NCBI GenBank assembly: GCA_017446685.1
Contig: JAFSQI010000083.1
Span: 16,590 to 80,589 of the forward strand
From: Butyrivibrio sp.
Lineage (GTDB): Bacteria; Bacillota; Clostridia; Lachnospirales; Lachnospiraceae
Length of the DNA: 64,000 nucleotides
Reading direction: 5' to 3'
The notes under the pieces were generated by a model. That model worked only from the letters and a program-made list of their open reading frames with translations. It had not been told where the DNA came from and searched no databases. This document shows, piece after piece, positions 22,605-55,682 of this stretch. Each line of letters opens with the position of its first letter. Positions within the stretch are counted from its first letter, which is position 1. Both the position numbers and the translations under genes were made by a program.

Positions 22605-23561
22605 TTAAATAATTCCGCGTCCACGAACTTTCTTACTAGCGTAATTACATACAAGAACAAGTACGCAACCTACAATTGATTTAAACAAACCAACCGCGGT
22701 CGTATAACCGTAATCTGGTATCGCAGTAAGGAAGGTCTGACGGTAAATATATGTTGAAATTACATCGGAAACATCGAAAACACGGTTATTATATAATACG
22801 AATACTGACTCAAAAAGATTGAGAACCTTAGCAAGGTTAAGAATCAGTACAATAATTACTGTGTTCATAAGTGCAGGAACTGTTACATACCAAATCTTCT
22901 GAAGTCTGGATGCACCATCGATATCTGCAGCTTCATAAAGCTCAGGATTGATACCTGAAAGTGTTGCCAGGAAAATAACTGTTCCCCAACCTGTCTCTTT
23001 CCAGATATTAATCAAGTAGAAAATTGGTCTCCACATTGACTGAGTATGAAGGAAATCAATACTCTGGCTCAAAATTCCCCATGACTTCAAAGTTTCATTT
23101 ACAAAACCTGTTGAAGATTTAGAGAGGAACAACTGGAAAATAGCAGCTACAACTGCCCAAGACATAAAGTGTGGTAAATAGATAATTGTCTGCAAAGATT
23201 TTTTTGCAAACATGTTATGCATCTCATTCAAGAAAACTGAAACAAGAACTGATGTAAGTGTTGTAATGATAAGTTTAGTAATTGAAATCTGTAAGGTGTT
23301 ACTAAAAGCTGTCCAGAACTCCTTTTTAGCGAACATAGTCTCGAAGTTCTTAAGTCCTACCCATGTAATATTCCTGAGTTTATACTCGTAAAAAGCATAA
23401 CGCACACCAAGCATTGGCCAGTAGTAAATTATAATTACAAATACAAGAACCGGCAAAAACATAAGATAATAACCGCGATTATTCCAAATACGAGTGCCTA
23501 GAGGTTTCTTGTTGATAGGAGCGCCTGTGGATGTAGTAGCAACATTCTGATTCTTACTCAT
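22605..23561 (-). CDS. carbohydrate ABC transporter permease (LplB/YteP type)
   Basis: This 318-residue six-span permease has the EAA loop EAADIDGASRLQKIWYVTVP near residue 205. It forms the channel with the LplC-type partner. AAAGGAAGAGG lies upstream of the ATG. It follows the binding-protein gene after a 169-base gap that holds a terminator-like hairpin, so it is probably expressed at a lower level than the binding protein. Confidence 0.9.
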   Translation of the reverse strand: MSKNQNVATTSTGAPINKKPLGTRIWNNRGYYLMFLPVLVFVIIIYYWPMLGVRYAFYEYKLRNITWVGLKNFETMFAKKEFWTAFSNTLQISITKLIITTLTSVLVSVFLNEMHNMFAKKSLQTIIYLPHFMSWAVVAAIFQLFLSKSSTGFVNETLKSWGILSQSIDFLHTQSMWRPIFYLINIWKETGWGTVIFLATLSGINPELYEAADIDGASRLQKIWYVTVPALMNTVIIVLILNLAKVLNLFESVFVLYNNRVFDVSDVISTYIYRQTFLTAIPDYGYTTAVGLFKSIVGCVLVLVCNYASKKVRGRGII

Positions 23562-36477: not shown

Positions 36478-37398
36478 TTATAGCCCCTGACCATCATTCA
36501 TCTTCTCAACAATCTTATTTACAAGAATAAGAAGAATAACATTGATAACTGTATTAAAAAGACCTACCGCTGTTGAATAGCTGTAATCGCCATTCAAAAG
36601 ACCTTTTTTGTAAACATATGTTGCAATGATTTCAGATGATGCCAGATTCATATCTGACTGAAGTGCATATGCCTTCTCAAAACCAACGCTCATGATATTA
36701 CCGGCCTGAAGAATAAACTGAATAACTACCATATCTTTAATAGCCGGCCACTCTACTGCTTTGATCTGCTGAAAAATATTAGCACCGTCAATCTGAGCTG
36801 CTTCCTTAAGCTCTGTGCTGGCATTTGAAAGAGCCGCTGTATACATGATTGAAGCCCAACCAGCCCCCTGCCAAATTCCGCTGATAATGTAGATAGGACG
36901 GAAAGCTGCAGGTATGGTCAAAAAGTTAATACTTGTCCCCAAAAACATATTCAAAGGGCCTGTAACTGAGAGAAGGATTCTGACCATACCGCACAGTACA
37001 ATAACCGATATAAAATTAGGCATATAAAGAACTAACTGAATTTTTTGTTTGATACTGCTACTTGCTACTCTGTTAAGCAAAAGCGCCAATATGATTGGCA
37101 TCGGAAATCCCCATAAAAGACCGAATATGCTCAGCTTAAGAGTATTTACAAGATATTGCATAAAATCCGGTGAAGATAGAAACTGCTTAAAATATTTAAG
37201 TCCTACCCACTCACTTCCCAAAATTCCCTTGAAAGGATTGTATTTCTGGAATGCTATCAGAATGCCTCCCATCGGAACATATCTGAAAAGAATGGTAAGA
37301 ACCAGAGCAGGCCCCAAAAAGAAAACATATAACTGCCAATGATGTTTGATATACATGAGAGTATTATGAAATTTACTCTCCCTGGCTACTTCATTCAT
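36478..37398 (-). CDS. carbohydrate ABC transporter permease (LplB type)
   Basis: This 306-residue six-span permease, with EAA loop EAAQIDGANIFQQIKAVEWP, is the first gene of the sucrose/fructan importer operon. GGGAGGG precedes the ATG. Order here is permease, permease, binding protein, GH32, the reverse of the first importer, where the binding protein comes first. No ATPase gene is present. Confidence 0.9.
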   Translation of the reverse strand: MNEVARESKFHNTLMYIKHHWQLYVFFLGPALVLTILFRYVPMGGILIAFQKYNPFKGILGSEWVGLKYFKQFLSSPDFMQYLVNTLKLSIFGLLWGFPMPIILALLLNRVASSSIKQKIQLVLYMPNFISVIVLCGMVRILLSVTGPLNMFLGTSINFLTIPAAFRPIYIISGIWQGAGWASIMYTAALSNASTELKEAAQIDGANIFQQIKAVEWPAIKDMVVIQFILQAGNIMSVGFEKAYALQSDMNLASSEIIATYVYKKGLLNGDYSYSTAVGLFNTVINVILLILVNKIVEKMNDGQGL

Positions 37399-37452
37399 TC
37401 AAAACCCTCCCTAAAAAAACTGTCTTATACAAATATTAAAAACAAAGTTTTG

Positions 37453-44662: not shown

Positions 44663-44733
44663 GCAGGATTAGTACATCGGTAGTATATCAGCTTCCCAAG
44701 CTGAGGAGGCGGGTTCGATTCCCGTATCCTGCT
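44663..44733 (+). tRNA. tRNA-Gly (anticodon CCC)
   Basis: The acceptor stem GCAGGAT/ATCCTGC pairs fully. The anticodon stem TCAGC/GCTGA encloses loop TTCCCAA, giving anticodon CCC, which reads GGG. The T arm is CGGG-TTCGATT-CCCG. The discriminator base is T, as usual for bacterial tRNA-Gly, and CCA is not encoded. It is a single gene on the plus strand amid minus-strand genes. Confidence 0.92.
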
Positions 44734-44787: not shown

Positions 44788-44821
44788 AACCGCCGATCAT
44801 ATTTTTTCATGACCGGCGGTT
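44788..44821 (-). terminator. terminator at the end of the eight-gene ABC operon
   Basis: AACCGCCG pairs with CGGCGGTT, with an inner TCAT/ATGA stem and one mismatch. TTTTTTATAAT follows on the minus strand. It lies 8 bases past the stop of the propeller/binding-protein gene. Confidence 0.9.
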
Positions 44822-44828
44822 AATTTAT

Positions 44829-47339
44829 TTAACTGTTTTCATTTACATAAATTGATAATCTACTCTGAATAATATCTGCAACTTCTTTTGCAGTCTTCTG
44901 ACCGCTGAAATATGCTGATGCTTCTTCAAATATGATATTATTCACGTTTTCATTGTAACTATTTACCAATTTAAGAGATTTAATGAAGTTTGTAACAAAC
45001 AAAACTTCCTCAGATGAAAGAGGGTCAACCTTTACTTCTACACCATCGATATAATAAGTCTGGTCATACTCTACTTTCTTGTCACCATCCATATAAAATG
45101 GCTTATGAGTTGCTGCTTCAGCTTTCTTGTCAAAGCTTGACTTTCTCACAGGGAAACCATAATCAATATTGTCCTGATAATCCTCTGAATAAAAACTCTT
45201 CAAAAATTCCCAGGCTACATCCTTATATTTACTGGAAGCACTGATAGCCATTCTCTTTGTTGGATAAATGATAGAATTATTTATTCCCATATCATTAGGG
45301 AAACCAACAAAGGAAATATCATCCCCAAATCTTGCTCTCTTTAAGAATGTATAATCAGTAAAATCTGAAAGCGAGTATAAAGAGAATAGCGCATCATCAG
45401 TCATATACAAAGAATCCTTGTAATTATCCCATACTCCGTCCTGATATTCAGAAGGCAATGTATTGGCAAATTCCAAAAACTCTATGAAAGAATCGCTGTT
45501 AAAATTACAAGACTTGCTGCTCCAGTCAATGTATGTATTTCCGGAATATCTAAGTCCTGATTCAACAAAATCATTCCTCGCAATGATGCCAAAGCTGCTA
45601 TCGGGTTTGACTCCCATTTTATTTATCAGGTCAGTGCAGTCTTTAAATGTAAGAGTATCTTTTCCATCAGTAAACTTTGTCTTAACAACCATTGTTGAAA
45701 CATAGAAGCTCGGAACAAGCTGATAAAGCTTATCACCTGTTTTGAAAGCATCCATTATATTTGTAATAAATTCAGTCTGTGAAAAATCCGAATCATTGCT
45801 AATATATGTAGTAAGATCAGCAAATAGTCCCTTGTTAATGTAACTATCAACCGGCATTGAATCATTTAAAAGGATAATATCAGGAACATTTCCGGAAATA
45901 ATATCCATATTCATCTGCTCAATTCCGCCATTTTCTTTTTCGTCAGAATCGTATGTTGAATAATCTACAAATTTAAATTTATAATCATTGCTCTGCTTGT
46001 TATACGCAAAAGCCTGTTTTCTTACATCATAATCAATATAATAACCGCCGATTGTAATAACCTGCTTATCCTTTACATCTTCGGGTGCTACTTTTGTAAG
46101 ACGTGCAAGATAATAGTTGTACTCAGAATCAGGGAATATGCCGACAAATTCTACATCACTAATAGCAGCAACCTGATTTGTTGATGAATTAAGTTCAAGA
46201 TCAGAATCAACATAATCCATAATCTTTGTCATACTGTCAGAAGCAAGATCGTATCCATAAAATCCTGCGCCATCACTTATGTAAAGATCATAACCATTTC
46301 CACCAAAGAAAGAATAATCGGTATATCCCGTAAGGGCTGTAGAAGGCTCTCCTATAGTTCCGTTTGTAATATCAAATGAACATAGTTCTATTCCTTTATC
46401 TCCATATGAAGAAACAAAATACTTATTGTCAAAGCCTTTATAAATCTGGTAATAACGATACTCTCCATTTGCAGAAATGTCATACAAAGTCTTGAAATCA
46501 GAGCCGTCGTACTTTACAATACCTTCTTCAAGACTAATGATAACTTCACCTTCATCAGTGACAACCATTCCATTTACTGAAGTGTAGTTATCATCTCCTG
46601 CAAACTTCTCTTTTAAATCGACTCTGTCAAGTTCGTTGCCTTCCGGATCAAATTTAATAAGATAAATTTCTTCTTCACTTCCATCCATTACGTCCTCAGA
46701 ATCATCCACAACTTCTTCATCAGAAGCTTCTTCACTACTTTCATCTGAAGCACTTTCATCCGGATTTTCTTTTTTATCATCAGTATGCGCTGTATCTTTT
46801 TCTTCTATAGCTTCCTCTGAACTTTCCAAAGCTGAACTATCTTCATCATCTCCTGCGGTTCCCATAGCTTTGTCGTCATCTATAGGCTCAGGCACACCAC
46901 CTTCATCATAAAGATGCATTTCACCATCTTCATCTTCAAAATCACAATTATATATATAGCTAATGGCATAAATATTCTCATCTTTGTCCACTACCAGATA
47001 CTGATAATTTTCATTATCTGAAAGCGGTAACTGAACATTTTTTACATTTGAACCGTCAGAATTAAAGGAATAAAGATTTATTTTTCCTCCATCACCATAC
47101 GTAGAAGCATAAACTCTGTCACCAGTTATCGACAATCTGCTAAAATCAATTTTCTGTCCATCCGCTATATCCAGAAGTTCTGTGGCAAAAACATAGTCCT
47201 TTGTACTGGAAACAGCCTGATCAACAATACTGTCGCCAGAACCAGTCTGTTTACCACAGCCTGTGAATAGCATGGTCACAGTACTGCCTGCAAGGATAAG
47301 CCCTGTAAAACGTTTAAATAATCCTCTTCTCATTTTCAT
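44829..47339 (-). CDS. lipoprotein fusing a beta-propeller-like region to a sugar-type solute-binding domain
   Basis: This 836-residue secreted lipoprotein has lipobox LFTGC (Cys28). Residues 45-400 contain repeated short strands of beta-propeller type (DRVYASTYGDGGKINLYSF, EIYLIKFDPEGNELDRVDL, YFVSSYGDKGIELCSFDI). An Asp/Glu/Ser-rich insert at about 150-225 interrupts them. From about 415 a type I solute-binding domain follows (NMDIISGNVPDIILLNDSMP, AISASSKYKDVAWEFLKSF). It closes the eight-gene operon. Its ligand is unknown. GAGG lies five bases before the ATG. Confidence 0.82.
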   Translation of the reverse strand: MKMRRGLFKRFTGLILAGSTVTMLFTGCGKQTGSGDSIVDQAVSSTKDYVFATELLDIADGQKIDFSRLSITGDRVYASTYGDGGKINLYSFNSDGSNVKNVQLPLSDNENYQYLVVDKDENIYAISYIYNCDFEDEDGEMHLYDEGGVPEPIDDDKAMGTAGDDEDSSALESSEEAIEEKDTAHTDDKKENPDESASDESSEEASDEEVVDDSEDVMDGSEEEIYLIKFDPEGNELDRVDLKEKFAGDDNYTSVNGMVVTDEGEVIISLEEGIVKYDGSDFKTLYDISANGEYRYYQIYKGFDNKYFVSSYGDKGIELCSFDITNGTIGEPSTALTGYTDYSFFGGNGYDLYISDGAGFYGYDLASDSMTKIMDYVDSDLELNSSTNQVAAISDVEFVGIFPDSEYNYYLARLTKVAPEDVKDKQVITIGGYYIDYDVRKQAFAYNKQSNDYKFKFVDYSTYDSDEKENGGIEQMNMDIISGNVPDIILLNDSMPVDSYINKGLFADLTTYISNDSDFSQTEFITNIMDAFKTGDKLYQLVPSFYVSTMVVKTKFTDGKDTLTFKDCTDLINKMGVKPDSSFGIIARNDFVESGLRYSGNTYIDWSSKSCNFNSDSFIEFLEFANTLPSEYQDGVWDNYKDSLYMTDDALFSLYSLSDFTDYTFLKRARFGDDISFVGFPNDMGINNSIIYPTKRMAISASSKYKDVAWEFLKSFYSEDYQDNIDYGFPVRKSSFDKKAEAATHKPFYMDGDKKVEYDQTYYIDGVEVKVDPLSSEEVLFVTNFIKSLKLVNSYNENVNNIIFEEASAYFSGQKTAKEVADIIQSRLSIYVNENS

Positions 47340-47369
47340 AATCTCCTCTCACAATAAAATTCTTTACAC

Positions 47370-48611
47370 TCATTTTCCACTAAGCTTTTTACGAGCTTCA
47401 TAATCATACTTCTTATCTGCAATAAACCGAACAATTCCGGCAACTGTCCAGGTCTTATGTCTATACGCAGATACTATAAGCACTGTCGCAATAACTGCTA
47501 CTACAACAATACAGATAATTCTGATAAGTAAAATAAAAGCCAGTATATCTTCCCATGCCTTGGCGACATTTTCCCAATAAGGATAATAAATTGGTTTTCC
47601 CCACATACTCCTTATTCCAAATTTTGAAATAACTTCAGCCAAAGCAAAAAAAGAATATCTATTTGTATTATCAACTGCCTCAACATACATGTCCTCAACG
47701 CCACTGCTTTCTTTGACCAGACGCTTTGCCAGTCCTTCAACAGGGTCAGGCATAACTATTTCATAGCAATTGATTCCACCATTATTTATTGTAGCACCAT
47801 CTTCAGATATTTCCTTAGACTCAGTTCTTCCACTAAAAATTGTTCCATATCTTGCAAGACTCTCATATGACATATATACGAAGCTCTTAGATAATCCGGC
47901 AGCTTCATTTAGTCTTCCGCCGTCTCTTTTTACAACTCCGGCAATGTAATGATTGATTCCACCAATTGTTACACACTTGCCAACTATGTCATCAGAGCCA
48001 AAAAGCTGCCAGGCAAGTTCTTCATCTACAACTATCCTGTCCTTCATAAGCTCATCAGGTGAAAAATAAGAACCATTTACAAGTTCCATAGGATGGAACA
48101 GGAAAAAATCACCTGAAACGCCTATAGTATCTATATTTTCTGCTGTCTTGCTTTCAAATTTAATTGTACTGATTCCCTGCGCACTGTAACAACTTGCATA
48201 AACTTTTACTTCTTCAGGAGTATCATCAGGTTCTGTTACTACATCTGAAGGCTTTTGAATATCAACTGTATCTACAATTTTTTTACCAGAAGGCTGTGTT
48301 TCTTCTTCCTCTTCTTCTTGGATAATACCAACTTCAGACATCTTTTTCTCAAGCATATATTCAAGTTTGTTTATATCATCAGGTGTAATCATTCTGCTTT
48401 CTGTAAAAAACAAACTCACCTGAGCTACTCTTGAATCCTGATCCCATCTTTCAGCAGCCTGCTGATCTACAATTGTTGAAATCAAAACACCTGATACAAT
48501 ATTGAGAATCAATTCGGTCAAAAAAAGTATTAGCGCAATTATCAGTATTTTATTTCTTTTCTTATTGGAAAAATAAAACTTAATATACCCACATATCTTT
48601 TTAAATATCAT
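47370..48611 (-). CDS. membrane protein with MacB-type periplasmic core, lacking the FtsX transmembrane domain
   Basis: This 413-residue protein has one N-terminal membrane span (about 22-46), a large external domain and one C-terminal span (about 362-386). The middle resembles the MacB periplasmic core domain, with VDEELAWQLFGSDDIVGKCV followed by HYIAGVVKRDGG. True MacB/FtsX permeases have three more spans at the C-terminus; these are absent. A Glu-rich stretch lies at about 100-107. Its ATG overlaps the HlyD-like stop (TAATG). It probably acts as an accessory subunit with that adaptor. Confidence 0.72.
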   Translation of the reverse strand: MIFKKICGYIKFYFSNKKRNKILIIALILFLTELILNIVSGVLISTIVDQQAAERWDQDSRVAQVSLFFTESRMITPDDINKLEYMLEKKMSEVGIIQEEEEEETQPSGKKIVDTVDIQKPSDVVTEPDDTPEEVKVYASCYSAQGISTIKFESKTAENIDTIGVSGDFFLFHPMELVNGSYFSPDELMKDRIVVDEELAWQLFGSDDIVGKCVTIGGINHYIAGVVKRDGGRLNEAAGLSKSFVYMSYESLARYGTIFSGRTESKEISEDGATINNGGINCYEIVMPDPVEGLAKRLVKESSGVEDMYVEAVDNTNRYSFFALAEVISKFGIRSMWGKPIYYPYWENVAKAWEDILAFILLIRIICIVVVAVIATVLIVSAYRHKTWTVAGIVRFIADKKYDYEARKKLSGK

Positions 48612-50167
48612 TATTCGCTTGCAAGCCTCACCTGTTCTCCTGCCTTAACAGGCTTAGTCGATGTTGTTATAACAAATTCATCTCCATTAAGAGCAGCAGA
48701 AATTGCTGTATAGTTATCATCAGAAGCAAGGACCTCTACTTCCACATTGGTTGCAATATATCTGTTGCCAAGTGGACTTGACTTGCTGTTAATAGCAAGA
48801 ACAAACTTTCCTGTGCTTCCTGTCTTAATTGCACTGTTTGGAACAACCATATCATATTCAATTGATCTTTCACCTATTGCAAGTGCAAGACTCTGACCAG
48901 GTGTAACCTCAGTACTTTCAATTTTAAATGTCAAAAGCTTCTTTCCTGATGGATCAGTCTTATCATTTTTTATTGAAGTAAGTGTAGCCTTGAATTCATC
49001 ACTGAACATCCATGCGTTCTGCGGTTTTGCCACATCTCCGACTTTAAGTTTCTGCGCCTGCGCATTAGTTACAGAAAAACTGGTAGTCATATCTTTACCG
49101 TCAATCTGAATAACTGCAAGGGTCTCATCTGCAGAAGCTGTCTCACCTGATGCTTTGTTAACTGATGAAATAGTTCCTGCAACCGGAGACTTAATTGAAG
49201 CACCTACTGATTCTTTTTCAAGTGCGGCAATTTTTTCCTTTAACTCTGCAATTTTATCCCTCTGTTCACAGAGAGAGATTTCCTTTTGTATTGCTGTTAT
49301 CCCCTCTGTCTTATCAGCTTCCGCTTTTTCATATTCGATAGTAACCTTCTGAAGCTGCCTGTTTACTATCTCTATTTTTTCATCATAGCTGTATCCGAGC
49401 TGGGAATTGGCAGCCTTAAGCTCAGTGTTGTTTTTAGTAAGCTCAGCAATTACCTTTTCAAGCTCTGCAGCTCTATCAGGATTTTCGCCAACCGTTTTCA
49501 AATACTCTTCTTCTGCCTTACTATATTCGATAGTCTGCTGATTATAAGAATTTTCAGTATCTGCAAGGGTCTTGAGATGAGTAAGATAATTTTTTGCATC
49601 CTCAAGATTGGTCTTCTCTTCTTTTAAAGCATCATATCTTTCATTCAGTTCCTTTAATTTTGCCTGATATGTATCATATGATGATGATCCGCCATTTCTT
49701 ACCCTTGTAATTACTTCATCCGGAACATCTCCTGCAAAGAGAGCCTGTTCATATGCAACCTCCTTGCTTTCAAGATCCTCTCTTGCAGTTTTCAGCTCAT
49801 CAGACTCCTTATCCTCAAGGTAAAAAAGGATATCTCCGATTTCAACGTGCGATCCCTCTTTTACAGCAACACCTGAAATCTTTCTGGTCTCTTTAATAGT
49901 CACATTATAAGGATCTTCTGCTGTTACAGTTCCTGTTCCCCTTATCTGAGGACTAATTGAACCATAGGTAATTTGCTGCGTTGCAACCTGTGGCAACGAG
50001 TAGTTCATAATAGTATTAGAAAAAAATGTAAGTATAAGCATAACAGACAAAAATGCTATTGCTACATTTTTTACCATATCCTTTTTGTTAATAGGCTTTT
50101 TACCATCTCCGGGTAATATCTCATGCCCATTAGAATCGATGATCTGTGTTTCCAAAACTTCTGACAT
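48611..50167 (-). CDS. HlyD/MacA-like membrane fusion (adaptor) protein
   Basis: In this 518-residue protein a single N-terminal span (about 32-52) anchors an external part with the split lipoyl-like hairpin: VKEGSHVEIGDILFYLEDKE near 118, and SVGASIKSPVAGTISSV near 318. About 180 residues of coiled coil lie between them. Beta-barrel and membrane-proximal domains follow. Such adaptors work with ABC exporters of the MacB type in Gram-positive bacteria. Here both an ABC exporter and a MacB-core-like protein are in the same operon. Confidence 0.88.
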   Translation of the reverse strand: MSEVLETQIIDSNGHEILPGDGKKPINKKDMVKNVAIAFLSVMLILTFFSNTIMNYSLPQVATQQITYGSISPQIRGTGTVTAEDPYNVTIKETRKISGVAVKEGSHVEIGDILFYLEDKESDELKTAREDLESKEVAYEQALFAGDVPDEVITRVRNGGSSSYDTYQAKLKELNERYDALKEEKTNLEDAKNYLTHLKTLADTENSYNQQTIEYSKAEEEYLKTVGENPDRAAELEKVIAELTKNNTELKAANSQLGYSYDEKIEIVNRQLQKVTIEYEKAEADKTEGITAIQKEISLCEQRDKIAELKEKIAALEKESVGASIKSPVAGTISSVNKASGETASADETLAVIQIDGKDMTTSFSVTNAQAQKLKVGDVAKPQNAWMFSDEFKATLTSIKNDKTDPSGKKLLTFKIESTEVTPGQSLALAIGERSIEYDMVVPNSAIKTGSTGKFVLAINSKSSPLGNRYIATNVEVEVLASDDNYTAISAALNGDEFVITTSTKPVKAGEQVRLASE

Positions 50168-50197
50168 TTCAAACTCTCCCTTAATCGTATTACAAAT

Positions 50198-51124
50198 TTA
50201 TCCCTTAATTCCTCCCTGGTAAGAAATTCCTTCCACCAGATAATCTTCCCCATATAAAAAAATAAGTAAAGGTGGTACTAAATATATAACTGCAACTGCA
50301 AATGCCAGGCTTATTTCACCTGCATTGATCTTGGATAGGAACACCGATAAAGGATGCATATCTGCATCAGGAAGTAAAATAAGCGGTTGTTCTACCATAT
50401 TCCAGTAATCGAAAAACACCAAAATAGCAATTGAGGCTATTCCCCCTTTGCATAGAGGAATGCAGACTCTTGAAAAAATGAACCATTCGTCCGCTCCATC
50501 TATCGAAGCAGCCTCCATAACTTCCGTAGGTATACGTCTCATAAATTTTGTCAAAAGATAAACTGCAAAAGGCGAAAACATTCCGGGAAGCCAGATTGCC
50601 CATTTTGTACCATATATGCCAATAGCCTTTGATACAAGAAAATTAGGAACTAATGTAACCTGATAGGGCATCAGCATCATAATTATATAAGCAAAAAATA
50701 TTACGTTTTTTATCATACCCGTATATCTGGCAAAGCCATAAGATGCAAGCGTCGCAACCGCAAGCTGAACAACCACTATAGGTACTACATAGATAATTGA
50801 ATTCCAAAACTTGATCAAATATTGCGGGCTCTTAAAAAGAACCGTGTAATACTGCGAAAAGGTCACCATATCAGGGATAAATTTCAGATTAACTGTCTTG
50901 GATATAAAAATCTTCCCACCTTTTTCAGTAGTAGCAAAAATAGTTCCATAGTTGGCATTAATTTCCGCCGATGACATAAATGAATTGGTAATAGTCAAAA
51001 TGGTCGGCATTAAAAACATAGCTGCAAATATGATAGCTGCACAAGTAACCAAAACTGTTTTTGCTGTATCTACTCTTCTTTTTCTGTTTTTTATTTTGTT
51101 TTTTACTTTAACCTGCATATCCAT
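50198..51124 (-). CDS. carbohydrate-type ABC importer permease (MalG/UgpE type)
   Basis: This 308-residue permease has six hydrophobic segments. A canonical EAA loop (EAASIDGADEWFIFSRVCIP) lies near residue 212. An external insert of about 35 residues follows the first span. It pairs with the permease encoded 7 bases upstream. No importer ATPase gene is in the operon. It could use a shared MsmX-type ATPase or, less likely, the exporter-type ATPase of this operon. Confidence 0.87.
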   Translation of the reverse strand: MDMQVKVKNKIKNRKRRVDTAKTVLVTCAAIIFAAMFLMPTILTITNSFMSSAEINANYGTIFATTEKGGKIFISKTVNLKFIPDMVTFSQYYTVLFKSPQYLIKFWNSIIYVVPIVVVQLAVATLASYGFARYTGMIKNVIFFAYIIMMLMPYQVTLVPNFLVSKAIGIYGTKWAIWLPGMFSPFAVYLLTKFMRRIPTEVMEAASIDGADEWFIFSRVCIPLCKGGIASIAILVFFDYWNMVEQPLILLPDADMHPLSVFLSKINAGEISLAFAVAVIYLVPPLLIFLYGEDYLVEGISYQGGIKG

Positions 51125-51131
51125 ATCAACA

Positions 51132-52058
51132 TTAACCCTCTACATCTTTTCCGTAATAATTCTCAATAGCATACATAATGTAGACCAGTATAGTAACTAC
51201 TATGAACATAATGATTGCAGCAGCGGACAATTTCTGGTAATCCAAGGAAGCAAATGTGTTGTTCATAAAATGCTGAAGAATATACAAAGTCTGGTAAGGA
51301 TAATCTCCTGTCATAAGGTACACTTCTCTGAAAACTTTAAAAGAGCTAATCAGAGACATTATGGCTACAAACAATATTGTTGAAGACATATATCTGACTT
51401 TTATCATCCAGAATACCTGCCATTTATTTGCCTTTTCCAGTGCACAGGCCTCCAAAAGATCTCTGGGAATACTGGCAAGGGCTGCCATAAAAAGAATCAT
51501 GTTATATCCGAGATTCTTCCACAAAAACAGTACTATGATAACCACAGCGGCATAATCAGATTTTAGCCAGTCAATCTTCTGCGCTCCAAAAAAAGTGCCT
51601 ACATTATTTACCAGGCCGTTCTGATGAAACATAACCTGCCATATAAGTACAACAGATGCAGTCGGCACCATTAAAGGACTTAGGAAAAATGTCCTGAAAT
51701 AACTTTTAAACGGAATTCTTGATTCCATTACAGCAGCAAGAAAAAGTGACAATATTACAGCAAGCGGAACCGCTAGAAATGAAAACATAAGCGTATTTTT
51801 GGCTGCCTGCTTAAATGCTGCATTATTCCAGACGTTGACATAATTGGCAAATCCGACAAACTCCTTCTGAATCGGGTTATTGATCATTGAATAATAAATA
51901 ACCACCATAAAAGGAGCCACAAAGAAAACAATAACTCCTATAAGTGAAGGTAGAAGAAAAAGCCATGAAATAAGCTTTTTCTTCTGAAGAGTTGTAAGCT
52001 TTCCATTGAAATGTATTCTATTTTCTTTTTTAACATGAGATAAACAAAACTTTTTCAC
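51132..52058 (-). CDS. carbohydrate-type ABC importer permease (MalF/UgpA type) with divergent EAA loop
   Basis: This 308-residue permease has six spans and begins with a basic leader. The expected EAA loop reads EACALEKANKWQVFWMIKVR. The conserved glycine and the final proline are missing, so ATPase docking may differ from ordinary sugar importers. It starts 9 bases after the ABC-2 protein gene and ends 7 bases before its partner permease. Confidence 0.86.
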   Translation of the reverse strand: MKKFCLSHVKKENRIHFNGKLTTLQKKKLISWLFLLPSLIGVIVFFVAPFMVVIYYSMINNPIQKEFVGFANYVNVWNNAAFKQAAKNTLMFSFLAVPLAVILSLFLAAVMESRIPFKSYFRTFFLSPLMVPTASVVLIWQVMFHQNGLVNNVGTFFGAQKIDWLKSDYAAVVIIVLFLWKNLGYNMILFMAALASIPRDLLEACALEKANKWQVFWMIKVRYMSSTILFVAIMSLISSFKVFREVYLMTGDYPYQTLYILQHFMNNTFASLDYQKLSAAAIIMFIVVTILVYIMYAIENYYGKDVEG

Positions 52059-52067
52059 TTTTAAAAA

Positions 52068-54254
52068 TCAATTGGTATCTGCTTTTACAAAATCAGGTAC
52101 CTTCCCCATTCTAAAACTGCAATAAGTATTTTTGGTACCAAAGTCATCCTTTGGATCTTTTAAAATAAACTCTATCATATACTGATTATCAGAATTATCT
52201 CTGTAATTGTACCACACATCATAGAATCCATTGTAAACAGCATTGTCACAAATTTCTTTAATAGAAGCTTCGTCCGTATATGTTTTTTCTATATTTTCAA
52301 AATCTTCACTGTACAGATAATTTAGTGGCTCAGTGTTGGCATCATGCCCCGGATATAGATTGGTAACAACAACACTATCAATATATTTTACATCTAAAGT
52401 ATTCTCAGAATAAATACCACATTTCTTTAAATATGAAATAGTATTGGTATAATTTTCATATACATTCAAATCAATAACAGCATATCCTATCGTAGTCGTT
52501 GTATTCATCAACCTTTGATAAGTGCTGCTTGCGTCAAACGTAATACTTCCTATAGGCAAAGAATTACTTACAAGTTCATATGAATAATTCTCTTCAATGT
52601 CCTTTCTGTAAGCATCGCTTAACATTGCATAATCAAATTCATTCACAGATTTAGAAACAATACTATTTGAATATGTAAGCTTTTTATCTTTTAAGTTGTC
52701 AATCTCTTTTCGCACTTTCTCATCATGAAAAACATTAAAAGCACCATGTTTGTACTCTTCTGAATCAACAACTCTGCTTATTAACGCACTATCTATATCA
52801 TAAGGTATACATATCGTGCGGTAAACCTTTTTTCCATTTTTTAATCTGTAAAGAACATGCATATATCTGCCGGAATCAGAATATTCACCATTTGCGGTGC
52901 GGATATGATTCTCTTTTAAAGTCTTCATTCCAATTTTACTGATTTCTATAATATCATTCACGTTAGTAAGATACATGTTGTCACCCTGCGTATTAATATA
53001 AGGATAACCGTTTTCATAATATACCTGAAATGTTGATGAATCATCTATAAGGGCACAGCTGCTGACTTTTTTTGCATCCGGAACATAGCTGTCATATCCT
53101 AAAAGATCGCCCCTGAAAATGACAAAAATAAGTGCAACCAAAGCCAGCGCCATCACTGTTTGTGCACCGCCTTTTGCAAATTTCCTGAAATTGTTTTCAA
53201 GAATAGCTTCAATTACAAAAGCAGCTAAAACTGTTGAGATAAGCATAGCCACAAGCATGCCCATATACATGTTATTATTCCACACGTAATCATAAATACT
53301 ATGGAAAAGAAGTCCGCCTGCCATACCTGCTATCACACAGCAAGTCACCTTAAGCAGCCATCTGAAAGGTAAATAACATACTGTCTTTCCCGCATGTTCA
53401 GCTTTTCTATATCTACTTGAAATATCTATAAGGATAAGTATAACAATAGCAACAACCAAAGTGTCTATTGTTCCCGGAAGGATCTCAACAATTGTATTTT
53501 TTACTCCTTCCATATCCAAAGACTTATTCATAGAATTAAAAACACTCAATCTGTCATATAACGGTGAAGCATATATTACTTCAGGAGTGTCATAATAATA
53601 TGTTGAAAAGAAAATTCTCTTAAATCCGATAAACTCATAACCAAGTACTGCAGTTACTCCCAAAAAGAAAACATTTAAAAGCATTGCAACAGGAAGTGTT
53701 CCGCTTAGCAAAATAGCCAGAACCGAAATATTATATATTGCAAAGAAGAATATCAGGCTTCGCAGCATTTCTATTAAACAGATCATTAATACATATTTAT
53801 TTAAAGCCCCGAAAGCTGCCGCAATTATAAAAGCCAATGCGCACACTAATACATGAATAAATACAAAAGTAGTTATTGCATTATAATAATTCTGTCTAAG
53901 ACGCTGTCCTCTTGTTGTTGGCTGACTTAAAAAGAAATCAATCTTTTTCTGGTCAAAAACATATGCAAAACCTTGAAACGCAAATGCGATAGCAATAAAC
54001 ATAATGATTGCAAAGCCAAGCTGATCTGTTCCCATTATCCGCACAACAGTTTTGTATTTTTCTGCCTGTAAAACCTCTGCAGTCTGGTTGTACATTTTTG
54101 CATAATTTATACTTCTTGAAAGCATCAGGACATTTCCAACAATATAATAAAATGCCATTAGTACAAAACCAATAATAGCGGTCCATAAAGTTCTGATAAT
54201 ATACTTTTTGTGATTTTTTATTTTTTCAGCCAAGGATAAATTTGCGGATGTCAT
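52068..54254 (-). CDS. ABC-2 type exporter membrane protein with large external C-terminal domain
   Basis: This 728-residue protein has an N-terminal part (about 1-400) of some nine or ten spans, beginning with KNHKKYIIRTLWTAIIGFVL. QPTTRGQRLRQNYYNAITTF is typical of the coupling region of YtrC/ABC-2 proteins. After the last span (about 345-365) some 360 residues lie outside with no motif I recognise. The start at 54254 follows GGAGGTGG and overlaps the ATPase gene by 29 bases. The open frame extends upstream to 54404, but that part is the ATPase gene in another frame. Its partner is the upstream ATPase. Confidence 0.82.
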   Translation of the reverse strand: MTSANLSLAEKIKNHKKYIIRTLWTAIIGFVLMAFYYIVGNVLMLSRSINYAKMYNQTAEVLQAEKYKTVVRIMGTDQLGFAIIMFIAIAFAFQGFAYVFDQKKIDFFLSQPTTRGQRLRQNYYNAITTFVFIHVLVCALAFIIAAAFGALNKYVLMICLIEMLRSLIFFFAIYNISVLAILLSGTLPVAMLLNVFFLGVTAVLGYEFIGFKRIFFSTYYYDTPEVIYASPLYDRLSVFNSMNKSLDMEGVKNTIVEILPGTIDTLVVAIVILILIDISSRYRKAEHAGKTVCYLPFRWLLKVTCCVIAGMAGGLLFHSIYDYVWNNNMYMGMLVAMLISTVLAAFVIEAILENNFRKFAKGGAQTVMALALVALIFVIFRGDLLGYDSYVPDAKKVSSCALIDDSSTFQVYYENGYPYINTQGDNMYLTNVNDIIEISKIGMKTLKENHIRTANGEYSDSGRYMHVLYRLKNGKKVYRTICIPYDIDSALISRVVDSEEYKHGAFNVFHDEKVRKEIDNLKDKKLTYSNSIVSKSVNEFDYAMLSDAYRKDIEENYSYELVSNSLPIGSITFDASSTYQRLMNTTTTIGYAVIDLNVYENYTNTISYLKKCGIYSENTLDVKYIDSVVVTNLYPGHDANTEPLNYLYSEDFENIEKTYTDEASIKEICDNAVYNGFYDVWYNYRDNSDNQYMIEFILKDPKDDFGTKNTYCSFRMGKVPDFVKADTN

Positions 54255-55131
54255 ACCCCACCACCTCCGTTTCACTGATAAATATTTCTTCCAGGGACAA
54301 CGGTAAAATCTCGAAGAAAATTGGATTGCCACGCTTAAATGCACTTTCAATTTCCGATCTTTCACCTCTGATAGTAATGGTATGAAGCCTTCCACGCTTA
54401 TCATGTACCATCACTTCTAGTCCCTCCAGAGCTTTCTTCTCATCATCATCTGAAGGAAATACGCACTGGACTTTCTGCATTCTAAGTTTCATATCTCCCA
54501 AATCTTCAGAAAGAATAACTCCGCCCTGATGTAAAAGTCCTATGTGATCACATATATCTTCAAGTTCTCTCAAATTGTGTGAAGAAATAATAGGCGTCAG
54601 TCCTCTATCTGTCATTTCTGCAGCAAGTATACTCTTAACCCCCTGTCTCACTACCGGATCCAGACCATCAAAAGTTTCATCACATATAAGATACTTAGTA
54701 CCTGCACATATTCCCAGAAGTATTGACACCTGTTTTTTCATTCCTTTTGAGAAGCTGCTTATTCTGCGCTCAGTGTCAAGTCCAAAGCCATTACAAAGTT
54801 TAAAAAATCTCAGTTTATCAAAAGAGCTGTAGATTTCTTCGTAATAATCTGCCATTTCACCCGGAGTACTATTAGGCAGAAAATACTGGTCATCTGAAAT
54901 AAAAAATATATCTTTTTTTACATCAGGATTATCATATACCGGTCTGTTATCAACACAAACAATTCCGCTATCAGGTCTGATTATTCCAACAACCATCCTA
55001 AGAAGTGTACTCTTGCCGGCTCCATTTGTTCCGACCAATCCAAAGACCTGACTATCAGCTACGTTCAATGAAACATGATTGACAGCAGTGATGTCATCAA
55101 ATCGTTTTATTATATCCAGTAATTCAATCAT
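54226..55131 (-). CDS. ABC exporter ATPase (YtrB/YhcH type)
   Basis: This 301-residue ATPase has Walker A GTNGAGKST (34-42) and Walker B YLICDETFDGLD. The signature is FSKGMKKQ instead of LSGGQ, as is common in the YtrB/BcrA exporter group. The last ~80 residues form an extra C-terminal domain. The gene follows the GntR-type regulator after 38 bases and overlaps the membrane subunit. In YtrA-controlled operons such ATPases drive export or cell-envelope stress functions. Confidence 0.92.
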   Translation of the reverse strand: MIELLDIIKRFDDITAVNHVSLNVADSQVFGLVGTNGAGKSTLLRMVVGIIRPDSGIVCVDNRPVYDNPDVKKDIFFISDDQYFLPNSTPGEMADYYEEIYSSFDKLRFFKLCNGFGLDTERRISSFSKGMKKQVSILLGICAGTKYLICDETFDGLDPVVRQGVKSILAAEMTDRGLTPIISSHNLRELEDICDHIGLLHQGGVILSEDLGDMKLRMQKVQCVFPSDDDEKKALEGLEVMVHDKRGRLHTITIRGERSEIESAFKRGNPIFFEILPLSLEEIFISETEVVGYDIRKFILG

Positions 55132-55169
55132 GTTACTCCTCCTTTACACTTTTCCATATATTCTCCACC

Positions 55170-55541
55170 TCAGTCATCAATGGGCTCAATCTTTTTCTTA
55201 ATCTCAATAATAAGTTCATTCACAGATATTCCAATATCCTGAGCTTCATGAAACAGTTCAACAACAGCAGTAATAATTTCTTCCTTTTTATTGTCCATCA
55301 TGGAAGCATTGTCTTTGACAAAATTCCCCCTGCCCTTGACAGTATAAATAAATCCCTGCCTTTCAAGCTCTGTGTAAGCTTTCTGCACTGTATTAGGATT
55401 GGTAGACAATTCCATTGCAAGGCTTCTGACAGAAGGCATCTGGTCTCCCGCCTGCAATATTCCCTTGTAAATCTGCAATTTAAAATTTTCTGCAATCTGC
55501 TCATAAATTGGTCTGCCATCTTGATAATCAATAAAATTCAT
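55170..55541 (-). CDS. YtrA-type GntR family regulator
   Basis: This 123-residue protein is a short GntR regulator. It has a winged helix-turn-helix (about 10-75, with AGDQMPSVRSLAMELSTNPN and VKGRGNFV) and only a short helical tail for dimerisation, so no large effector domain. This is the YtrA subfamily layout, which normally heads ABC exporter operons and represses them. The ATG at 55541 follows GGTGG. Another at 55553 has no ribosome site. A matching operator and promoter lie just upstream. Confidence 0.9.
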   Translation of the reverse strand: MNFIDYQDGRPIYEQIAENFKLQIYKGILQAGDQMPSVRSLAMELSTNPNTVQKAYTELERQGFIYTVKGRGNFVKDNASMMDNKKEEIITAVVELFHEAQDIGISVNELIIEIKKKIEPIDD

Positions 55542-55624
55542 ACCATCCACCATAAGAAAAAATGATTAAATTATGAGAAAGCTACAGTGTAAATAATGTG
55601 TTAAATCAAAGTAATACACTTAAC

Positions 55625-55653
55625 TAACTGTACTAACAATGATAGTACAGTTA
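55625..55653 (-). promoter_or_regulatory. operator of the YtrA-type regulator
   Basis: TAACTGTACTA and TAGTACAGTTA form a perfect 11-bp inverted repeat with a 7-base centre. The GTACTA...TAGTAC core is like known YtrA operators. It covers the predicted start of transcription. Confidence 0.75.
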
Positions 55654-55654
55654 C

Positions 55655-55682
55655 ATTATACATAATTCATATTTATTTGCAA
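55655..55682 (-). promoter_or_regulatory. promoter of the eight-gene ABC operon
   Basis: TATAAT (55660-55655) with TTGCAA (55682-55677) and a 16-base spacer. The operator begins two bases downstream of the -10 box. Confidence 0.68.

Follow-up and report, generated by a model that had tools for sequence, protein, structure and literature searches.

Why should one operon of a rumen bacterium combine the genes of an ATP-binding cassette (ABC) exporter, the two permeases of a sugar-type importer, and an adaptor and a core protein that resemble efflux components? This question is raised by eight consecutive genes in a 64,000-nucleotide stretch of a Butyrivibrio sp. genome (assembly GCA_017446685.1, contig JAFSQI010000083.1), hereafter the window, which is located at G000:C35, where G000 is the genome of the window. 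An initial inspection of the DNA, termed here the sequence-only reading, had proposed that the eight products form a single envelope machine. Our analysis points to a different answer, to which we assign a probability of about 60%: the eight genes stand under one switch and would provide an importer-type complex that is powered by a MalK ATPase, carries a MacA/MacB-like attachment, and is subject to regulation of the envelope-stress type. The parts of the operon, in window coordinates, are the following.

55170 to 55553, minus strand: gene 1, short GntR regulator of the YtrA/PmtR type, 127 amino acids (PmtR is the best NCBIfam match, below its cut-off)
54226 to 55131, minus strand: gene 2, exporter-type ABC ATPase, 301 amino acids (nearest to PmtA, below the PmtA cut-off)
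52068 to 54254, minus strand: gene 3, ABC-2-type membrane protein, DUF6449, eight hydrophobic segments, 728 amino acids (Pfam and segment prediction)
51132 to 52058, minus strand: gene 4, MalF/UgpA-type permease with an altered EAA loop (Pfam and EAA alignment)
50198 to 51124, minus strand: gene 5, MalG/UgpE-type permease with a canonical EAA loop (Pfam and EAA alignment)
48611 to 50167, minus strand: gene 6, MacA/HlyD-like adaptor, single N-terminal membrane segment, 518 amino acids (Pfam, Protein Data Bank [PDB] sequence match, and segment prediction)
47370 to 48611, minus strand: gene 7, MacB periplasmic-core protein, two membrane segments, no recognized ATPase or FtsX domain, 413 amino acids (Pfam and segment prediction)
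44829 to 47339, minus strand: gene 8, lipoprotein, 836 amino acids, with a C-terminal solute-binding domain (about residues 432 to 834) and an N-terminal half that may be propeller-like and contains an acidic insert
44788 to 44821, minus strand: intrinsic terminator of 14 pairs, after gene 8

All eight open reading frames (ORFs) are encoded on the minus strand (55553 to 44829), and their Pfam matches are, in the order of the genes, GntR, ABC_tran, DUF6449, BPD_transp_1 (twice), HlyD_3, MacB_PCD, and SBP_bac_1. The intergenic gaps amount to 38, -29, 9, 7, 30, -1, and 30 bases, with 54254 adopted as the start of gene 3 (the ORF listing gives 54404). The operon described in the sequence-only reading was thus confirmed in its gene order, its gaps and overlaps (38 bases at most), and its terminator, and the joint presence of import and efflux-type parts was borne out as well.

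Two BPD_transp_1 permeases with EAA loops and an SBP_bac_1 lipoprotein are features of the MalFGK-UgpABCE (CUT1, type I) importers, which the module formed by genes 4 to 8 further resembles in that a MalK gene lies beside it in distant relatives. It differs from these importers by two additional extracytoplasmic subunits, namely, the HlyD-like protein and the MacB core, by a solute-binding protein (SBP) whose long N-terminal half is possibly propeller-like, and by the altered EAA loop of MalF. Sequence comparison with PDB entries related gene 6 to membrane-fusion proteins, including MacA, and gene 7 to MacB (E value, 7e-11) and also to the periplasmic core of YknZ. As in MacAB and the Gram-positive YknXYZ, a MacA-like adaptor is hence found beside a MacB periplasmic core; in contrast to these systems, the ATPase of MacB itself and its four-segment FtsX membrane domain are absent, and gene order links the two proteins to importer permeases. 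The statement that the MacB-like protein lacks its transmembrane domain has to be corrected, as two membrane segments are predicted (residues 22 to 40 and 356 to 374), whereas an FtsX domain is not recognizable. Pfam detected MacB_PCD in all 57 members of the gene 7 alignment, in none of which an FtsX or ABC domain was recognized at E values of up to 0.01; two membrane segments are predicted in 42 of these members and three in 15. MacB_PCD was also found in 5/5 distant members tested. A divergent form was noted in L039 (5761 to 7224), where the MacB-core protein ends in a long acidic tail, a lipoprotein gene was not seen, and polyamine-transporter-like ORFs follow.

How far the association extends was assessed with a profile scan of genome contigs based on the gene 7 alignment, which confirmed at least 437 relatives; in viral contigs, six pattern matches were obtained, none of them related to gene 7. 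Of the 80 relatives kept, nearly all are labeled Lachnospiraceae: 35 as Butyrivibrio, which includes the nearest named relatives, and the rest as Acetatifactor, Lachnotalea, one Roseburia metagenome-assembled genome, and others, with four labeled otherwise or vaguely. The pairs MalF-MalG, MalG-HlyD, and HlyD-MacB were each contiguous in 74 of the 75 profile-scan loci having MalF. Since loci L021 to L121 were chosen by gene 7, the presence of MacB in them is circular, and 11 of L021 to L040 are the same places as 11 of L042 to L121. A less circular set consists of 55 loci chosen by MalF score (L167 to L221), within which L182 to L221 represent 40 of the 48 MalF places between 292 and 234 bits (five others had already been covered, and three were left out). 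HlyD was present in 51 of these 55 loci, MacB in 46, and all four genes in 46. The corresponding numbers were 56, 51, and 51 for the 60 loci L162 to L221, which include five (L162 to L166) picked in the knowledge of a weak MacB match nearby, all with the four genes; before being applied to L162 to L181, the MacB and HlyD profiles had been rebuilt to include members from these loci. HlyD and MacB were furthermore found in 12/12 and 11/12 of the loci L256 to L267 (11 picked by MalF and L266 by the binding protein) and in 4/5 and 2/5 of the loci L236 to L240. As a control, 14 regions of G000 harboring 17 of its 19 other MalF-type matches contained no adaptor and no core. Neither was present in L241, an ordinary-scoring MalF region that is included in one module count and excluded from the recount of contiguity and MalK. 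Judged by these comparisons, the conserved machine that we predict is MalF-MalG-HlyD-MacB_PCD with one or more solute-binding lipoproteins, not the eight-gene set. One locus, L178 (G618:C14:4000-23000), harbors tandem copies of the module, each with MalF, MalG, an HlyD-like ORF (72 amino acids in the second copy), and a MacB-core match.

What, then, is the standing of the first three genes? A congeneric sample provided 20 loci out of 36 other genomes of the same genus, and a search for the eight-gene order, suggested with the sequence-only reading, found it in 16 of the 20, so it is not a product of chance. The other four loci (L037 to L040) consist of MalF-MalG-HlyD-MacB without the first three genes, and L039 additionally lacks the lipoprotein gene. 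The module MalF was detected in 56 of 61 Butyrivibrio genomes (E values of up to 1e-60), including all 34 of good quality. A gene 3 homologue directly adjoins MalF in 34 of these 56 genomes (coordinates compared by eye); no exporter gene adjoins it in 22, of which at least three are cut at a contig start and 11 show a completeness of 99% or more. A further 17 matches to gene 3 are weaker and located elsewhere. Among the 45 profile-scan loci not labeled Butyrivibrio, several of them incomplete, the exporter protein was observed in two (L066 and L075), and an SBP gene sits between the trio and MalF in L075. When the presence of the exporter protein (25 rows) was mapped as a label onto a 72-row MalF tree, three changes had to be assumed, one of which rests on L057, whose contig starts at MalF; L084, likewise cut, groups with two label-bearing rows. 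Given that these two loci are cut, one old gain plus a loss, or two gains, fits. The distribution suggests that the GntR-ATPase-ABC-2 trio, in which a short GntR regulator stands beside an exporter ATPase and an ABC-2 protein as in YtrA-type GntR-ABC units, is an add-on to the module that was gained in one lineage. In the same tree, L094, labeled Candidatus Gastranaerophilales, pairs with an Acetatifactor row and is probably a mis-binned contig.

These data bear on two alternatives. That all eight products build one envelope machine would agree with their common promoter, operator, and terminator and with the conservation of the order in 16/20 congeneric loci and of the exporter beside MalF in 34/56 Butyrivibrio genomes. 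The freedom of the first three genes from the rest weakens this idea: in the other 22 genomes and in most of the remaining loci, no exporter gene is found next to the module, and in L075 the SBP gene separates the trio from MalF. We consider it improbable. The single machine of the sequence-only reading was not supported, as its MalFG-HlyD-MacB half is found without an adjoining exporter gene; the separation of the two halves is a partial one, seen in 22/56 genomes. According to the second alternative, the HlyD and MacB-core proteins would form an efflux system with the ABC-2 exporter (genes 2 and 3), and the importer MalFG would be a bystander. Proteins of the HlyD and MacB types commonly function in efflux, and the exporter genes belong to the same operon; however, adaptor and core remain with MalFG where the exporter is absent, and the contiguity of MalG-HlyD and HlyD-MacB in 74/75 loci also speaks against this alternative, which we hold to be very improbable. 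Gene neighborhoods indicate a firmer division at another point: HlyD and MacB are retained beside the importer permeases and do not follow the exporter.

An importer requires an ATPase, and no MalK-type ATPase gene is present in the operon of the window. The sequence-only reading was right about this absence. A sample of the phylum (398 genomes) contained 8 genomes with the module MalF at E values of up to 1e-75, of which five, with six loci (L250 to L255), are outside the class of the window. In all six loci, a MalK-type ATPase gene (405 to 444 bits to the MalK query) lies no more than 280 bases beyond MalF-MalG-HlyD-MacB, and the binding protein is encoded before or after. Five loci within the class, namely, L172, L197, L204, L256, and L238, also have a MalK-type gene next to the module; L238 contains a short adaptor piece alone and no recognized core. 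The NCBIfam cut-off for UgpC was exceeded by L172, L197, and L204 and not by L238, and the MalK-type ATPases of L172 and L254 were checked in Pfam. Since relatives encode a MalK-type ATPase in the operon, the gap in the window is not a defect in itself. The MalK domain PF17912 was found in all 34 good Butyrivibrio genomes and in 53 of 61 overall; G000 contains a single match, at a contig edge, along with a further MalK-like ATPase beside a different MalFG pair (L223) and the 19 other MalF-type matches. A stand-alone ATPase gene is reported to serve a cellodextrin transporter, and further cases are cited there (PMC9601137). By analogy, the module in Lachnospiraceae probably borrows a shared UgpC/MalK-type ATPase that is encoded elsewhere and would drive the complex. 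Two other candidates fared less well. A neighbor of the module in L039 was rejected because it is PotA-like and polyamine-type permease and binding-protein ORFs come next (named by eye), and gene 2 is disfavored, as it does not adjoin the module in loci without the trio.

Control of the operon was examined upstream of gene 1, where two elements were recognized.

55655 to 55682, minus strand: sigma-70-like promoter TTGCAA-16-TATAAT upstream of gene 1 (called from the consensus match only)
55627 to 55651, unstranded: YtrA-type operator ACTGTA-N13-TACAGT with the core GTACTA-N7-TAGTAC, just downstream of the -10 box (inverted repeat and locus comparison)

Promoter-like sites are not in excess in the region, with 55 on both strands compared with 50.5 ± 9.4 in shuffles. 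The inverted repeat before gene 1 is perfect, with 11-base arms, and its core occurs a single time in G000. This core was present in 36 of the 40 loci with a GntR gene, corresponding to 27 of 31 distinct loci because nine loci are the same place fetched twice, and in none of the 56 loci without a GntR gene; in 44 of the latter, the available sequence extends more than 3.6 kb upstream of MalF. The YtrA site of Bacillus subtilis is given as AGTGTA-13bp-TACACT (PMC8060467). Exactly this sequence, AGTGTA-N13-TACACT, was found in 18 of the 31 distinct GntR loci, and the site of the window deviates from it by one change per arm. The YtrA-type operator and the single regulated unit, with its shared promoter, operator, and terminator, are supported, and a link to envelope regulation, raised in the sequence-only reading, is possible. 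In the B. subtilis operon ytrGABCDEF, the GntR repressor YtrA, the operator, ABC genes, and the MacB-like-core protein YtrF are likewise united (PMC8060467), and lipid II cycle inhibitors are reported to induce ytr (PMC12772383). In contrast to ytr, the MacB-core protein of the window belongs to an importer module. To our knowledge, B. subtilis Ytr contains no MalFG pair. Since the module sits behind the GntR and exporter genes under a YtrA-type operator, both pumps should be co-produced; in most of the Butyrivibrio clade, where the GntR repressor and ABC-2 exporter precede the module, they would be made together, probably on a cell-envelope signal. Other lineages often have a two-component system nearby instead: a response regulator and a histidine kinase are encoded near the module in 26 of 40 second-group Lachnospiraceae loci and in 8 of 20 others (three pairs were checked in Pfam), and inducible, envelope-linked control is possibly a theme across lineages.

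The candidate receptor of the module is the gene 8 lipoprotein, described in the sequence-only reading as a fusion of a propeller and a binding domain. The binding domain was verified as SBP_bac_1. The propeller is less certain: the N-terminal half of a 69-row gene 8 profile matches propeller chains at E values of about 1e-5 to 1e-3, and a single-sequence search with gene 8 matched no propeller chain. The closest solved structure is that of CbpC from Clostridium thermocellum (7x0o), with an E value of 4e-35 for the profile and 2e-12 for the single sequence. The cbpC operon (Cthe_2125-2128) is described as comprising four genes, including cbpC and the permease genes msdC1 and msdC2 (PMC8303734), and the legend to Fig. 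1 of PMC9601137 names an acrA gene among five transporter clusters, leaving the cluster unspecified. Because CbpC is the nearest solved relative of gene 8, permeases are encoded in its operon, and acrA is among the clusters, C. thermocellum transporter C is a likely candidate for membership in this kind of module. Expression and binding data on cbpC are available (PMC7471329 and PMC3492117). At least two tandem copies of the lipoprotein gene follow the module in L023, L025, L034 to L036, L052, L060, and L073; their products are about 26 to 41% identical to gene 8 and are predicted to be several receptors for one permease pair.

From these parts, the following working of the module can be proposed. 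The products of genes 4 to 8 would assemble into a complex of the MalF-MalG channel, the binding lipoprotein, the MacA-like adaptor, and the MacB-core protein. The latter would lie in the membrane beside MalFG and bear a ring of the HlyD-like adaptor that passes through the thick cell wall. The lipoprotein would capture a ligand derived from the wall or from a glycan at or near this ring and pass it on to MalFG for inward movement, which the shared MalK would power by hydrolyzing ATP. We tentatively suggest, at clearly less than even odds, that this represents a new architectural class: a MalFGK-type importer in which the MacB core bears a MacA-like ring that acts as a funnel or gate across the wall, and whose lipoprotein recognizes a wall or surface polymer instead of a free sugar. 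Within one class, it would occur in many families, and outside this class in at least three; in Butyrivibrio, it would be combined with a YtrA-type switch and an exporter.

Several observations weigh against a MalK-driven importer of this kind. Three of the loci picked by MalF (L183, L205, and L218) contain neither adaptor nor core, and five others have the adaptor and no recognized MacB (L171 is cut by the contig). A MalK gene next to the module is rare, being found in 3 of the 60 loci L162 to L221 and in 0 of the 75 profile-scan loci. Once proteins of fewer than 250 amino acids were removed, the conserved Gly was found to be missing from the EAA loop of the module MalF in 69 of 73 rows, and the Pro in all 73; in the 19 other MalF-type proteins of G000, Pro is kept in 19 and Gly in 18, so ordinary docking of MalK on the MalF side is uncertain. 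Of 63 module MalFs that belong to other lineages, all retain the Gly and 42 the Pro, and among those with MalK beside the module, Pro is lost in L250 to L256 and L172 and kept in L197, L204, and L238. CbpC is reported to have bound none of the carbohydrates tested, an extra loop blocking its pocket, and to conflict in this respect with an earlier study that reported binding (PMC9601137; earlier study as reported in PMC11212667). Finally, no sugar-breakdown gene regularly adjoins the module, as judged from the 30 largest clusters among 440 flanking ORFs of 80 loci: none of the clusters occurs in more than 17 loci, and none abuts the module as a regular partner. By eye, these clusters include a LacI-like regulator (12 loci) and a uronate-isomerase-like protein (11 loci), both about 7 to 8 kb away on the other strand. 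A separate case is L040 (12488 to 15818), where beta-galactosidase-like and LacI-like regulator ORFs (named by eye) lie just upstream of the module.

Part of this evidence suits the main rival explanation, in which the module is a MalFGK-driven sensing or mechanotransmission device: ATP-driven movements of MalFG would make the MacB core and the HlyD ring outside act on the wall or report its state, and the lipoprotein would be a gate or receptor. MacB is known as a mechanotransmitter. Besides the absence of a recurrent sugar-breakdown neighbor, the blocked pocket and lack of sugar binding of CbpC would fit such a device, as would the reported normal growth of the transporter C mutant (PMC9601137) and the presence of a YtrA-type operator or of adjacent two-component systems. 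The EAA loop of MalG, in contrast, is canonical in 76 of 76 and 61 of 61 rows, and SBP genes frequently occur in more than one copy and with divergent sequences, a pattern suggestive of ligand recognition. On balance, we regard a sensing device as unlikely, and retain the importer-type complex as the preferred reading.

MacA/HlyD adaptors and MacB-core proteins are usually regarded as indicators of export. In the present case, they accompany importer permeases in many families, and the efflux naming of these genes is therefore probably wrong. A role of the adaptor in uptake or sensing becomes testable, and a likely context is offered for CbpC, an orphan solved protein whose ligand is disputed. 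No description of the MalFG-HlyD-MacB combination was found in the literature searched, an absence that does not prove that none exists; this importer-type machine is apparently undescribed, as the sequence-only reading had surmised for the eight-gene set.

Some further features of the window were noted. A tRNA-Gly (CCC) gene at 44663 to 44733 on the plus strand is convergent with the operon and lies just beyond its terminator. On the minus strand, a MalF-type permease frame with one in-frame TGA is located at about 36520 to 37404 (G000:C35:53109-53993), and another such frame, without stops, at about 22623 to 23468.

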